DNA of 64,000 nt. Source: Deltaproteobacteria bacterium. GTDB taxonomy: Bacteria; Desulfobacterota; Desulfuromonadia; Geobacterales; Pseudopelobacteraceae. Positions 3,743 to 46,008 of the stretch are shown one piece after another. Location: contig JAJZRX010000001.1 in assembly GCA_021850095.1 (NCBI GenBank), positions 1 through 64,000 of the forward strand, written 5' to 3'. The number at the start of each line of letters is the position of its first letter. Position 1 is the first letter of the stretch. Position numbers and translations under genes: made by a program. The notes under the pieces were generated by a model. The model saw only the letters and a list, made by a program, of their open reading frames with translations. It was not told the origin of the DNA and ran no database searches.

Positions 3743-5287
3743 GTGAATCGCAGGGATTTTCTGAAAGCGGCGGCTGTCTCTGCCGCAGGGCTGGCTACGG
3801 GCGCTTGCGCCTCCAGCCCTCCGCTCTGCTTCAGCCCGGATCTGGCCGCCAACCTGGATCGTCTACCCTACGGCGGACTGGCCGAGTCGCTTGCGGTTGA
3901 ACAGGATTATGCGGCCGAGGTCAGCGGGAAAATACCCGATGAACTGCGGGGGTCGCTCTATCGCAACGGTCCCGGCCTGTTCGAACGGGCCGGGCAGCGC
4001 AAACGGACCATCCTGGACGGCGACGGCCTGATCCAGCATTTCCGCTTTCACGATAAAGGTGTCCATTACCGGACCCGCTTCGTGAAGACCGAAAAATACA
4101 AGGCCGAATCCGCCGCGGGGCGCTTTATCTACCCCTCCTGGAGCACCCAGGCGCCCGGCGGCTGGCCGGCCAACTTCTGGGTGACCGAGGGGCTCAAGAG
4201 CCAGGCCGGAATCACGGTCTACCTGATCAACGGGCGCTTGTACGCCTTTGATGAATCATCCTACCCTTATGCGCTTGATCCGGCCACGCTGGAGACAATC
4301 GGCGAAGCCACTTTCGGCCTGCCGCGCGAAGAGACGATCTATTCCGCACACTCCAAAATCGACCCGCACAGCGGAGAATGGCTGCATTTCGGTGTCTTCT
4401 ATGGCGCCACGCCCCGGCTGCACATCACCGTCTTTCATCGCAACGGCACACTCAACTACCACCGTGCCATAACCATGCCGCGCTTTGTCTATATCCACGA
4501 CTGGTTCGTCTCCTCCCGCTACCTGATCGTCAGCCTGCACCCGGTCGTGATCGACTTCTGGCCGGCCCTGCTCGGTTTTCGCAGCATCTCCGACTCGCTG
4601 CGCTGGAGACCGGAGCAGGGCAACCTGCTGCTGGTGATTCCCCGCGACAGTTCGCAAGACCACTTCACGGTCGAAGCGCCGGCCCGTTTCATGTGGCATT
4701 CGATCAACGCCCATGACGACCGGGGAACGATCATCGCCGACTTTATCGGCTACGACAACCCGGATCATTTTGTCGGTCCGGATCCGATCATCAGCGCCGT
4801 CATGCAGGGGCGCGAAGGGGAACACCGCTATCCGGGACTGTTGAGGCGCTACCGGATCGATACCGTTCAGAAGCGGCTGACGGAGGAGATCCTTTCTGAG
4901 GGAAGTTTCGAATGGCCGAGCATTGACCTGCGCCGGCTTGGTCAACCCCATGAGCATGCCTGGATGGCCGAGGCCCGGCCGGGCAGTTTCTTCTGGAACG
5001 GTCTGGCGCGCTTCAATCTGCGGAGCGGCAGCCTTGACCGCTATGATTTCGGGGAGCGTACCTACTGCAGCGAGCCGCTCTTCATAGCGCGGCCGGGGGC
5101 GGGTGCCGACCAGGGCTGGCTGCTTTCGGAGTGTTACGACGTGCGCACCGGCAGAAGCTTCCTGGCGATACTGGATGCCGAAAGGGTAGCGGATGGTCCT
5201 CTGGCCAGTATCCATCTGCGGCACCACGCGCCCTTCAGTTATCACGGCTGGTGGCAGGCCGCCCAGCCACCCGTAATCACCGGTTGA
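3743..5287 (+). CDS. Carotenoid oxygenase family protein, Tat-exported lipoprotein
   Basis: A 514-residue member of the RPE65/carotenoid cleavage dioxygenase family, iron enzymes that oxidatively split conjugated double bonds. The four iron-binding histidines fit H203 (S-A-H-S), H252 (I-H-D-W), H319 (M-W-H-S) and H501 (S-Y-H-G-W). The N-terminus is a twin-arginine signal (N-R-R-D-F-L-K) followed by T-G-A-C with Cys22 as possible lipidation site, so the protein should be folded and metallated before export. It starts at GTG, 19 bases after the YdbL-like stop. Substrate is unknown; no carotenoid synthesis gene is in the window. An O2-using enzyme is unexpected in a largely anaerobic lineage. 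Confidence 0.82.
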   Translation: MNRRDFLKAAAVSAAGLATGACASSPPLCFSPDLAANLDRLPYGGLAESLAVEQDYAAEVSGKIPDELRGSLYRNGPGLFERAGQRKRTILDGDGLIQHFRFHDKGVHYRTRFVKTEKYKAESAAGRFIYPSWSTQAPGGWPANFWVTEGLKSQAGITVYLINGRLYAFDESSYPYALDPATLETIGEATFGLPREETIYSAHSKIDPHSGEWLHFGVFYGATPRLHITVFHRNGTLNYHRAITMPRFVYIHDWFVSSRYLIVSLHPVVIDFWPALLGFRSISDSLRWRPEQGNLLLVIPRDSSQDHFTVEAPARFMWHSINAHDDRGTIIADFIGYDNPDHFVGPDPIISAVMQGREGEHRYPGLLRRYRIDTVQKRLTEEILSEGSFEWPSIDLRRLGQPHEHAWMAEARPGSFFWNGLARFNLRSGSLDRYDFGERTYCSEPLFIARPGAGADQGWLLSECYDVRTGRSFLAILDAERVADGPLASIHLRHHAPFSYHGWWQAAQPPVITG

Positions 5288-41646: not shown

Positions 41647-41970
41647 CTATTCCAGGGTTGTGCGCAGGCGTTTTTTTTCGGACAAAATCCGCTTTCCGCT
41701 CAAGCGCTGTTCCTTGGCCCGCTTCGGAACACGGGTCGCGATACGCTTTTTGACTTTGCGCTCGCGCTTCTCCAACGCCAGACGCAGACGCTGCAGGGCC
41801 ACTTCGCGGTTCTGGTACTGCGAGCGGAACTCGGAGGCCTGGGCTACGATGCCGGTCGGCAGATGGCGGATACGCACCGCCGAATCGGTCGTGTTGCGAT
41901 GCTGTCCGCCCGGTCCCGAAGCACGGTAAAATTCTATCTTTATGTCCGCTTCATTGATTTCGATTGCCAT
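41647..41970 (-). CDS. Peptide chain release factor-like (GGQ) protein
   Basis: A 107-residue stand-alone release-factor catalytic domain with [10 protein letters not shown] and a C-terminal tail very rich in Lys and Arg (R-K-V-K-K-R-I-A). It lacks the codon-recognition domains of PrfA and PrfB, as in ArfB/YaeJ, which rescues stalled ribosomes by hydrolysing peptidyl-tRNA with its basic tail in the mRNA channel. Whether it is a true ArfB orthologue is not certain. It is monocistronic. Confidence 0.83.
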
Positions 41971-42062
41971 AGCAACTTTGTACCATCAAAGATAGCCAGT
42001 GCAAATACAATTTTCCACCAGCGCCGAACCTTCAGTGCTCGATCCTATCATTAAAATAATTC

Positions 42063-42090
42063 TTGACAACTTCGCTGTTGCTGGCATAAT
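42063..42090 (+). promoter_or_regulatory. Promoter of the riboswitch-cytochrome transcript
   Basis: A perfect -35 TTGACA (42063-42068) and -10 CATAAT (42085-42090) are 16 bases apart. A sigma-54-like GG-N10-GC (TGGCATA-ATCT-ATGCC, 42082-42097) overlaps the -10, so the sigma factor is not settled; sigma-70 fits better. Confidence 0.65.
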
Positions 42091-42120
42091 CTATGCCAAA
42101 ATACATATATAGATACACGA

Positions 42121-42190
42121 GAATACTAAACCATCCGTGAGGATGGGACGGAAAGCCTACAGGGTCTCATGCAGACAGCCGGGTCGCCGA
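42121..42190 (+). promoter_or_regulatory. GEMM-I cyclic-dinucleotide riboswitch, likely cGAMP class
   Basis: The leader has the GEMM-I core: ACCATCC-GTGA-GGATGGGACG (P2 with a GNRA loop), then GAAAGCC, a second hairpin AGGGTCT-CATGC-AGAC, and AGCCGGGTCGCCG. Aligned by eye to the Vc2 c-di-GMP aptamer, the base that contacts the ligand as G20 is A here (42125). That change marks the GEMM-Ib aptamers of Geobacter, which bind 3',3'-cGAMP. Its 3' part shares bases with the terminator stem that follows, so ligand binding should allow read-through into the cytochrome gene. Confidence 0.85.
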
Positions 42191-42226
42191 AATGTCATTA
42201 CGATATTTGGCGACCCGGCTTTTTTT
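42178..42226 (+). terminator. Riboswitch-controlled intrinsic terminator
   Basis: AGCCGGGTCGCC pairs perfectly with GGCGACCCGGCT (12 bp, extended by GAAAT/ATATT) and is followed by seven T. The 5' arm is part of the riboswitch aptamer, the expected layout of an on-switch. Confidence 0.93.
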
Positions 42227-42404
42227 GTGCCGCACAGCCTATCAAAGGAGGGCCATCCATGATCTGAAAAACCGCAGAGAGCTGATCAGTACCCGGTTTT
42301 GACAACGTACCTCCTACACTGTGCCGTCAGAGACCACCACAACACGCCGATAAAGGCATCTCATCAATGACAAGGCGCTCCGCGCCGCATACCAAGGAGA
42401 CGAA

Positions 42405-44294
42405 ATGATGAATTTTACACGCATCGTGCGCGCAGCAACCTGCTGTACACTGTCAATCCTGGTGCTGCTGACGTTCATCCCGCAGTTTGCCCAGGCCGCG
42501 ACCATCGTCGTCAAGTTGACTACCGACAAAAACAGCTATCAGCAGGGGCAGATAATCAAGGCCAACGCCTATGCCGCCTATGCGGACGGCAAACCGGTGC
42601 TCTCGGTAAAGAAACGGGAAATCTCCATCAAGAATTCGGCCGGAGTAACCGTTCTCAAGACCAGCATGAGCAGTCTGGGTAACGGCTACTTCAGCTACAG
42701 CTATACCACCAGAAGCGACGCCAGAATCGGCACTTGGGAAGTCAAGTCCCAGATAGTGGATTCTGCCGATGTCCAGGCTGAAACAAAACTGCAGGTCAAG
42801 ATGACCGCCGTAACATCCACGCCCCCCCCACCGGTAACTCCTCCACCCAGCACCACCCCGCACGCCGGTCTGATCTGGAACGGCGCCGCCACCTGCCTGA
42901 CCTGCCATGCCAACCAGGCCAAGGCGGTGCACGGCTCGGTGCATTACCAGTGGAACGGGGCCTCCCCGGACATCAGCAACCATCCGGTTTCGGGCGGCAA
43001 AAATGCCGGAGCGGTCAATGCCTACTGCATCAACATCCTCGGCAACTGGAACGGCTGCAGCGCCTGCCATGTGGGGCGCGGCGCCAAGCCGACCGCCATC
43101 GCCGATCAGGCCCAGCTGGAAAACATCGACTGTCTGCTCTGCCACCAGGAAAAATACAAACGGGTCAAAGTCAATGGCGTCTTCCAGCCGGATACGGCCA
43201 ACATGACGGTTACGATGAACCAGGCCGTGCAGACGCTGCACAAGCCCACCCGCGCCACCTGCCTGCAGTGCCATGCCAAGGCCGGCGGCGGCGATGCCGT
43301 CAAACGCGGCGATATCGCACTGGCCCATGCGGCGACGACCGACCGCAACTACGATGTTCACATGGCTACCACCGGCGCCAACCTGACCTGTCAGGGCTGC
43401 CATGTCACCAGCGACCACAAGATCCCGGGCCGTGGCAGCGACCTGCGCCCCAGCGAAGGCAGCCTTGAAGTCAGCTGCTCCACCAGCCAGTGCCACTCCA
43501 ACAAGACAACCACCGGCGGACACACCACAGTCGGCATCAACAAACACCTGGGTCGCCTGGCCTGCCAGACCTGCCACATCAAAACCTATGCCCGCAATGC
43601 GGCCGACACGGTCGCCAGTGAAGCGACCGAAACCTTCCGCACCTGGCAGCAGAACCGCTTTGATGCGGCCAAGAACCAGTATCACCCGGCCGCAACATTG
43701 GCCAATGACCTGAAACCGGAATATTTCTTCTGGAACGGCACCAGCTGGGCCTATGATCTGAACGACCAGGCCGTCATCGATCCGGCCACCGGCTTCTACA
43801 AGGTCAGCCGTCCGCTGGGCGGCATCAACGACGCCAAGAGCAAGCTGTATCCCTTCAAGTACAAAACCGCCGAACAGCCTCTGGCAACCGCGCTCAACAA
43901 GCTGATCGCCCTGGATACCAGCGTGTTCTTCGCTACCGGCAACCTGTACAGTGCCGTCCAGTCCGGGCTGCTCAACATGGGGCTGCCGGCCGGCGAGCCG
44001 TACAGCATGGTTACGACTGACGAGTACCAGACCCTCAACCACCAGGTCACCACCAAAGATCAGGCCCTGACCTGCACCAGCTGCCACGGCAGCACCGCCC
44101 AGATGGATCTGAAAGGTAAGCTGGGCTATGGCCTGAAAGGGCCGGCCGCCACGGTCTGCATCCAGTGCCACGAAAACAAAGGCAGTATCAGTTTCGAGAA
44201 AGTACATTCCAAGCATGTGGACGACAAGGGCTACGACTGCTCCTTCTGCCACAGCTTCTCCCGCCCGGAGCGGGGATTGAAAACCACTCGCTAA
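42405..44294 (+). CDS. Decaheme c-type cytochrome with N-terminal Ig-like domain
   Basis: A 629-residue exported protein. The signal peptide ends after A-Q-A (residue 31), followed by a beta-sandwich domain (residues about 35-135), a Pro/Thr-rich linker and a heme region from residue 164. Nine C-x-x-C-H motifs and one C-x4-C-H (C-S-T-S-Q-C-H) can be counted, so ten hemes are likely; no lipobox is seen. Similar proteins serve in extracellular electron transfer. Its leader holds the riboswitch and terminator, so expression should follow the cyclic dinucleotide signal. AAGGAGACG precedes the tandem ATGs. Confidence 0.93.
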   Translation: MMNFTRIVRAATCCTLSILVLLTFIPQFAQAATIVVKLTTDKNSYQQGQIIKANAYAAYADGKPVLSVKKREISIKNSAGVTVLKTSMSSLGNGYFSYSYTTRSDARIGTWEVKSQIVDSADVQAETKLQVKMTAVTSTPPPPVTPPPSTTPHAGLIWNGAATCLTCHANQAKAVHGSVHYQWNGASPDISNHPVSGGKNAGAVNAYCINILGNWNGCSACHVGRGAKPTAIADQAQLENIDCLLCHQEKYKRVKVNGVFQPDTANMTVTMNQAVQTLHKPTRATCLQCHAKAGGGDAVKRGDIALAHAATTDRNYDVHMATTGANLTCQGCHVTSDHKIPGRGSDLRPSEGSLEVSCSTSQCHSNKTTTGGHTTVGINKHLGRLACQTCHIKTYARNAADTVASEATETFRTWQQNRFDAAKNQYHPAATLANDLKPEYFFWNGTSWAYDLNDQAVIDPATGFYKVSRPLGGINDAKSKLYPFKYKTAEQPLATALNKLIALDTSVFFATGNLYSAVQSGLLNMGLPAGEPYSMVTTDEYQTLNHQVTTKDQALTCTSCHGSTAQMDLKGKLGYGLKGPAATVCIQCHENKGSISFEKVHSKHVDDKGYDCSFCHSFSRPERGLKTTR

Positions 44295-45675: not shown

Positions 45676-46008
45676 TCAGTGGTGAAAGCGTCCTTTGCGC
45701 CCCTTGTGGGCCGGTGTGGGGGATTTGTGGCAATCAAAGCAGGCTTTTTCTTCGACCTTCTTGGTCTGCAGTGGCGATTCCTGGCCTCCCAGGGTCGGCT
45801 GATTGTATTCCGGAGTCTGGAACGTCAGCCGGCCCCGTTCGTCGGCAATACTGGCAACCTGATAGATGGCCTTCCAGTTGGTGCTGATCTCCACCGAATG
45901 GCACTGGTCGCAGCCACCCGGCGGCGGAATGCTTTTCCAGGCGGTGAACATGGCGCAGCCGCTGATCATGAAAACCAGCCCCGTCAGGGCCAAGAGGGTA
46001 TATTTCAT
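45676..46008 (-). CDS. Diheme c-type cytochrome lipoprotein
   Basis: A 110-residue lipoprotein (M-I-S-G-C, Cys18) with two heme sites, C-D-Q-C-H and C-F-D-C-H, and a Lys/His-rich C-terminus (H-K-G-R-K-G-R-F-H-H). It should be anchored to a membrane face in the periplasm and move electrons. It is not adjacent to an oxidoreductase; partners are unknown. AGGAG lies before its ATG. Confidence 0.88.
   Translation of the reverse strand: MKYTLLALTGLVFMISGCAMFTAWKSIPPPGGCDQCHSVEISTNWKAIYQVASIADERGRLTFQTPEYNQPTLGGQESPLQTKKVEEKACFDCHKSPTPAHKGRKGRFHH

Follow-up and report, generated by a model that had tools for sequence, protein, structure and literature searches.

A predicted cGAMP riboswitch and a second conserved leader element upstream of an octaheme tetrathionate reductase-type decaheme cytochrome gene in the Geobacterales

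Organization of the locus and identity of the aptamer

We analysed a multiheme cytochrome gene and its leader in a 64,000-nucleotide stretch of DNA (the window; contig JAJZRX010000001.1 of assembly GCA_021850095.1) from a member of the Pseudopelobacteraceae, order Geobacterales. On the + strand, the locus comprises a candidate promoter, a GEMM-I riboswitch aptamer, an intrinsic terminator, a second conserved leader element, and a gene for a decaheme c-type cytochrome with a core of the octaheme tetrathionate reductase (OTR) type. An earlier note, made from the sequence alone, had proposed a riboswitch for 3',3'-cyclic GMP-AMP (cGAMP) at this site and overlooked the second element.

The sigma-70-type promoter (42063-42090, TTGACA-16 nt-CATAAT) was called by a consensus scan, matches 11 of 12 bases and is a consensus match only; scanning 41950-42420 on both strands returned two sites against a shuffled mean of 0.9. 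An Rfam covariance search matched 42115-42191 (+) to RF01051 (GEMM-I) at 44.6 bits, above the gathering score of 35 (E 1.8e-5 for 64 kb against 4227 families), which bears out the GEMM-I core described previously; no further GEMM-I aptamer was found in the window. With its P1 helix (GAUA/UGUC, 42112-42115 with 42193-42196) the aptamer covers 42112-42196. RF01051 model position 11, which we take to be G20 of the Vc2 aptamer, falls on A42125 in the Rfam alignment, and Vc2 positions 47 and 92 correspond to A42152 and C42187. The earlier note had read an A at position 20 and named a G there as the result that would count against it; the Rfam alignments give A, and G at this position is ruled out. 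GEMM-Ib, the class marked by this A, was reportedly defined in PNAS papers of 2015.

The selectivity base A42125 is A14 in the crystal numbering of the cGAMP riboswitch, for which a simulation study of the solved structure lists the ligand contacts G8, A9, A11, A12, A14, C15, G40, A41, A42 and C75 (PMC6274999). All ten contact bases match in the window, A20, A47 and C92 among them, and the C15-G40-type pair is C42126-G42151. Pair counts and contacts were compared across 17 aligned A20 aptamers (alignment A1, which omits six leaders duplicated under other handles and the later-found L088 and L091). Nine of the ten contact bases were invariant, the tenth, A12, being C in 4/17, and P2 showed both-side changes in 5/6 pairs. 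The c-di-GMP-I-GGC family, RF03167, outscored RF01051 on this aptamer (49.1 against 44.6 bits). Membership was nevertheless rejected: the score lies below the gathering value of 59, and the family has consensus G20/G47, with G47 required, whereas the window has A at both positions.

Terminator overlap and predicted switching

An intrinsic terminator (42177-42226, + strand) follows, with a 19 bp stem (42177-42196 with 42202-42220; -33.4 kcal/mol) and a run of seven T residues (42220-42226), the first of which closes the stem. The earlier note had called it perfect; its presence and its 5' arm in common with the aptamer stood up, but the stem carries one bulged G (42189). A simple terminator scanner made no call for 42177-42226, presumably because of the bulge. 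Among the 17 aligned leaders, 77.7% of terminator cells pair, and the basal seven pairs are kept in 17/17.

The terminator arm 42177-42196 is the 3' half of the aptamer: it holds the 3' strands of P3 and P1 together with the ligand-pairing C42187, which the terminator pairs with G42210. The terminator therefore excludes the ligand-bound aptamer. The terminator of the pilM cGAMP switch in Geobacter metallireducens captures C75, and termination there is prevented by cGAMP (PMC9262584). C42187 is taken just as C75 is there, and the same ON logic is therefore expected here.

In the mechanism we propose, RNA polymerase would initiate at the 42063-42090 promoter, and the aptamer would be the first structure to fold. 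Without ligand, the arm would leave the aptamer, pair with 42202-42220 and stop transcription at the T-run. When 3',3'-cGAMP is bound, with its adenine at A42125 and its guanine paired to C42187, P1 and P3 would retain the arm, the terminator would be blocked, and the decaheme gene would be transcribed.

Conservation of the riboswitch-cytochrome linkage

We examined 141 genomes of the order, defining a close orthologue of the cytochrome as one scoring >=464 bits. No more than nine candidates were scored per genome, and at least 35 close orthologues were obtained. RF01051 lay upstream of 11 of the 35 listed: 9/16 in the family of the window's organism, 2/2 in a second family and 0/17 in a third. 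L063, at a contig end, has little upstream sequence. Among ten titled records, seven had RF01051 upstream (L045 twice), six of those seven being genomes already in the first set. All 13 distinct aptamers at these cytochrome loci were of the A20 type.

The linkage was clustered in both of two trees (6 and 5 changes against shuffled means of 11.6 and 10.6; 0/500 shuffles as low). The first tree contained two unrelated rows. The second was built without L051, L059 and L071 (for which the signature was too strict), two unrelated open reading frames (ORFs) and four identical cores, and its deep forks are weak. With the trees rooted on an OTR outgroup, an early GEMM linkage that was later lost in one family is possible.

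A Desulfuromonas metagenome-assembled genome (MAG), L045, has a tandem GEMM-Ib pair (1276-1480) before a decaheme-type OTR cytochrome gene. A MAG titled Actinobacteria, L044, has a match to RF03169 (c-di-GMP-II-GAG; 59.5 bits) at 4248-4334 (-), on the opposite strand from an OTR-type cytochrome gene and about 1.7 kb upstream of it.

Predicted cyclic dinucleotide signaling in the same genome

The window belongs to a 3.4-Mb draft genome with 14 RF01051 matches, 11 above the cut-off. A20 was present in seven: the window aptamer, a tandem pair and a single copy on contig 111, and one each on contigs 12, 50 and 113. One match (L014, 17.5 bits) was unclassified at position 20, and the other six were G20 by eye. 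The genome has 22 GGDEF matches, and the Hypr position, visible in 20, is Asp in 17, Ser in two and Thr in one. One Ser-bearing protein is a GacA-like cyclase (REC-GGDEF, 454 amino acids, GHVVGS) whose top PDB match is 6d9m (E 1.7e-63), which we take to be the Hypr crystal structure, an endolysin fusion of a cyclase. The second predicted Hypr cyclase is a HAMP-GGDDF protein (GYIKAS, Ser at the Hypr position) resembling GSU1937 (PMC8835794). Judged by sequence, Hypr cGAMP synthases are encoded, and the GacA-like cyclase is the most likely source of the signal.

The A20 aptamer on contig 113 stands ahead of a helix-turn-helix (HTH) gene and, after it, pilM. The published cGAMP regulon contains a transcriptional regulator and pilMNOP, and deletion of gacA in Geobacter sulfurreducens lowers the regulator, pilMNOP, cytochromes and lipoprotein transpeptidases (PMC6456294).

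From this evidence we conclude, with a probability of about 0.88, that the leader is a GEMM-Ib transcriptional cGAMP ON-switch of the OTR-type decaheme cytochrome gene. The sequence, the fold homology, the base identities, the mutual exclusion of the two RNA folds and the presence of the cyclases were computed here; from them we infer ligand binding, the direction of control in the cell and the substrate of the cytochrome. The cGAMP ON-switch of the earlier note agrees with the identities A20/A47/C92, the C42126-G42151 pair, the overlap of aptamer and terminator, the Hypr cyclases and the pilM operon led by GEMM-Ib. A riboswitch before this decaheme gene would be a new case, though not a surprising one, of a control system already known from Geobacter.

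Several observations weigh against this conclusion. P1 is weak (4 bp), and 67.6% of P1 cells are paired in A1, partly because MAFFT shifts a P1 strand in several rows. The computed minimum-energy structure of the isolated aptamer-length RNA differs from the GEMM fold, as often happens for ligand-dependent folds that involve tertiary contacts. The draft genome is 90% complete. Of the 35 listed close orthologues, 24 had no GEMM that reached the gathering score, and the protein can therefore fulfil its role without cGAMP control; one of these 24 genes stands in tandem after a GEMM-linked gene. Finally, the omcST riboswitch of G. sulfurreducens, an A20 GEMM, is reported to respond to both cGAMP and cyclic di-GMP (c-di-GMP) (PMC6456294).

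The omcST case, together with the 22 GGDEF matches and the ordinary Asp at 17 of the 20 visible Hypr positions, would suit an A20-type but promiscuous aptamer whose main ligand in the cell is c-di-GMP. We consider this quite unlikely: the window keeps every one of the ten cGAMP contact bases, the C15-G40-type pair among them, the pgcA switch of the same class prefers cGAMP approximately 1200-fold (PMC6456294), and predicted Hypr cyclases are encoded. The window copy might also be a degenerate GEMM relic with no regulatory effect, since half of the genome's matches to RF01051 depart from the usual type, and truncated repeats occur among them. That explanation appears highly improbable for a copy that keeps all listed contacts, a strong promoter match, a strong terminator and cross-genus synteny.

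A repeated GEMM-I-like RNA of the genome (L002, L012, L013, L004, L010; C99:60918-62189, C5:3446, C116:10167) has G20 and, where its 3' part is kept, U92 (by eye). Its top match is RF03168, at 58.4, 54.2 and 52.6 bits and, for truncated copies, 31.2 and 23.4 bits, against a gathering score of 65.9; by pattern there are six copies, three clustered on C99. The combination of G20 and U92 would be consistent with recognition of a cyclic dinucleotide in the opposite orientation. On contig 111, a tandem A20 GEMM-Ib pair (L079, C111:8922-9227) precedes a lipoprotein-like ORF of 687 amino acids that contains two heme motifs. L082 (C105:18497-18571), by eye a GEMM-I of the G20 type that likely senses c-di-GMP, lies before a small protein gene and an FKBP-like gene.

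Architecture of the decaheme cytochrome

The cytochrome gene (42405-44294, + strand) is preceded by the Shine-Dalgarno (SD) sequence AAGGAG, read from the sequence at 42394-42399 (+). It encodes 629 amino acids: a signal peptide (by eye), an MG2-like beta-sandwich, an OTR-like octaheme core and two C-terminal hemes. The ten heme motifs counted in the earlier note were recovered as nine CXXCH and one CX4CH (CSTSQCH, residue 358).

The N-terminal beta-sandwich, also claimed previously, was supported by two results. Residues 38-128 (42516-42788, +) matched PF01835 (MG2) at 31.8 bits, just below the cut-off of 32.8, and two orthologues scored 43.8 and 41.3 bits. AlphaFold2 modelled eight strands across residues 34-134 with good confidence; the whole-protein model (mean pLDDT 42.4, 10 rows) is usable for the N-terminal sandwich only, and we therefore make no claim on the fold of the heme core. 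Among four relatives scanned, two had MG2 plus chitobiase-C-like domains, one (the L045 protein) had MopE-type metal-binding repeats at its N-terminus in place of MG2, and one had neither.

Residues 162-575 (42888-44129, +) aligned to OTR (1sp3, E 2.5e-53). All eight OTR heme motifs have counterparts there, the sixth being CSTSQCH, and two further CXXCH motifs lie C-terminal of this core. By chain positions counted from the alignment, K300 aligns with Lys153 and C208 with Cys64 of 1sp3; both residues were invariant in 10/10 aligned proteins. TIGR04315 (octaheme tetrathionate reductase) scored 278 bits, below its curated cut-off of 375, and the OTR pattern of eight heme motifs with a catalytic Lys ligand was found with one motif as CX4CH. 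In OTR the catalytic second heme is ligated by a conserved Lys, and a CXXXXCH motif carries heme in the OTR relative MmcA (PMC11024163).

The matches to 1sp3 and TIGR04315 supersede a generic decaheme reading of the protein. Its architecture is unusual yet assembled from known parts. We expect the product to be exported and to act as an OTR-type decaheme cytochrome, either handing electrons to an extracytoplasmic acceptor or reducing it. Near the gene, on the opposite strand, a small lipoprotein-like ORF (45676-46008, -) contains two CXXCH motifs (CDQCH and CFDCH).

A second conserved element in the leader

Between the terminator and the start codon, alignments of 9 and 11 cytochrome leaders revealed an SD-like purine stretch, AAAGGAGGG (42244-42252, +), and downstream of it an element of about 40 nt (42292-42332, +) with the consensus TTGACRACGNMCYTCC-N4/5-CYGTGYMGTCAA. 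The core of the element in the window is TTGACAACGTACCTCC-TACA-CTGTGCCGTC, and the element is better conserved than the remaining leader 3' of the terminator. No Rfam family matched it at E<=1. Literature searches aimed at it named no such element; their coverage of subscription journals was thin, and they are weak evidence of absence.

Among the 35 listed close orthologues, the element was present in 11/11 GEMM-linked genes and in 0/24 without a GEMM of their own. L045, outside the 35, is an exception, with a GEMM but no second element. The window's genome holds one copy only, and none was found in its other six A20 leaders. A pattern search of the 141 genomes gave 24 matches in 21 genomes, against two for a reversed control. 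A profile (R1) was trained on 22 of the 24; L103 and L121 were omitted as off-consensus, and neither is an R1 match. The R1 scores of the training rows, including 39.8 bits for the window, are thus by construction, and only four matches above 20 bits are new. Two of them are strong (32.3 and 29 bits) and precede aroE-pilB and pilB; the two weak ones (21.0 and 20.7 bits) each precede pilM. All four new matches lie in type IV pilus leaders, and this placement is the strongest argument for a genuine element. With strict filters and no more than 22 candidates scored per genome, 20 of 277 genomes of the class had a match at E<=0.001, all from the order.

We collected 26 instances (A7): 11 before decaheme cytochrome genes, five before pilM, two before pilB (one via aroE), three before NiFe-hydrogenase small subunit genes, four before small protein genes (one tested, no Pfam match) and one at a contig end. 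Pfam confirmed all five pilM genes, the two pilB genes, aroE and two hydrogenases; the remaining hydrogenase and small proteins were assigned by eye. In 25/25 instances with a gene, the element had the same orientation as the gene.

GEMM-Ib lay upstream in 13 of the 26, namely the 11 cytochromes and two hydrogenases, each of the latter with two aptamers. For the other 13, we searched for TAAAG-N-GCCGAT, which we take to be a sigma28-like consensus, and found it 52-71 nt upstream in ten with at most two mismatches and in nine with at most one. Among the 13 GEMM-linked instances, one had such a site at this distance with two mismatches and none with one; the background was 0.20 sites per 130 nt at two mismatches. 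The pattern was drawn up after inspection of these leaders, so these counts describe the association and do not test it. With either GEMM-Ib or a sigma28-like site upstream, the element would come early in the transcript, behind one of two inputs. The HTH-pilM operon is led by GEMM-Ib in the window's genome and by the second element in L109 and L160. Hydrogenase leaders also vary: in the relatives L119 and L120, a tandem GEMM-Ib and then the second element precede the NiFe-hydrogenase small subunit gene, and the L101 and L157 hydrogenase leader has the second element without GEMM.

The segments TTGAC/GTCAA and ACG/YGT of the element could form a hairpin, with a loop as conserved as the stem. 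Covariation gave no support for an RNA hairpin: there were 0 both-side pair changes against 1.8 in shuffles, 86.8% of cells paired against 88.9% in shuffles, and a control slid by one position (+1) scored higher (0.166) than the hairpin (0.080). A small covariation signal (two pairs) occurred in the cytochrome leaders alone. We therefore term the element a conserved sequence. A sigma70 promoter was rejected by eye, as TTGACA-N17 is followed by TGCCGT or TGTAGT, without the A of a -10 box. A conserved leader peptide after AAAGGAGGG was likewise rejected; two-codon frames are present in the window and three relatives, with nothing consistent elsewhere. The constant orientation, the position 3' of promoters and of an intrinsic terminator, and the variable loop, one base longer in 3/26, favour action as RNA; a directional DNA operator is a possible alternative.

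In the window, CCUCC of the element was computed to pair with an upstream GGAGG (-11.3 kcal/mol) or with the SD of the gene (-7.8 kcal/mol), pairings that would fit a translational switch. They raise the question of whether the second element, as an anti-SD hairpin or a protein site, is the main control and the GEMM merely sets a basal level. Its conservation above the rest of the leader past the terminator and its occurrence in 11/11 GEMM-linked and 0/24 GEMM-less genes of the 35 would also suit this explanation. The missing covariation of the hairpin speaks against it, the upstream GGAGG was not seen by eye before instances outside the cytochrome leaders, and the window's leader past the terminator is no more stably folded than shuffled sequences (z 0.23; z 0.68 for the element and its flanks); we regard it as unlikely. 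With the cGAMP switch kept as the main control, a read-through transcript would still bear the second element and would probably be subject to further regulation through it.

We tentatively propose, at somewhat less than even odds, that the sequence at 42292-42332 is a cis-regulatory element, probably acting as RNA, that has not been described before and belongs to a surface regulon of the Geobacterales. This regulon would include pilM, pilB, NiFe-hydrogenase and OTR-decaheme leaders, in which the element occurs either by itself, in most cases with a sigma28-type promoter upstream, or downstream of one or two cGAMP riboswitches. If so, cGAMP control and a second, motility-linked control would converge on one transcript. 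If the element truly regulates, it would offer a testable sequence common to pili, hydrogenase and cytochrome genes and would bear on the coordination of surface growth and electron export.

Comparison with known systems

Beyond the two model Geobacter species, the cGAMP regulon would gain a new kind of target, in which an OTR-type core is joined to adhesion-like N-terminal modules. On this view, control by cGAMP may extend from conducting cytochromes and pili to a terminal reductase. The predicted switch resembles the Geobacter cGAMP riboswitches (G. metallireducens pilM; G. sulfurreducens pgcA/GSU1761) in its fold, in A20/A47/C92, in a terminator that takes C92 and the P1 strand, and, as predicted for the window, in ON logic and an electron-transfer target gene. 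It differs from them in its target, an OTR-type decaheme cytochrome, and in the second conserved leader element downstream of the predicted switch. The protein is like OTR (1sp3; TIGR04315) in having eight heme motifs in order and K300 and C208 as equivalents of Lys153 and Cys64, but has CX4CH for one CXXCH, two extra C-terminal hemes and the N-terminal sandwich. It has in common with MmcA of Methanosarcina a CXXXXCH motif in an OTR-related protein; MmcA is without the catalytic second heme (PMC11024163), whereas the window protein keeps the motif for that heme and its Lys.

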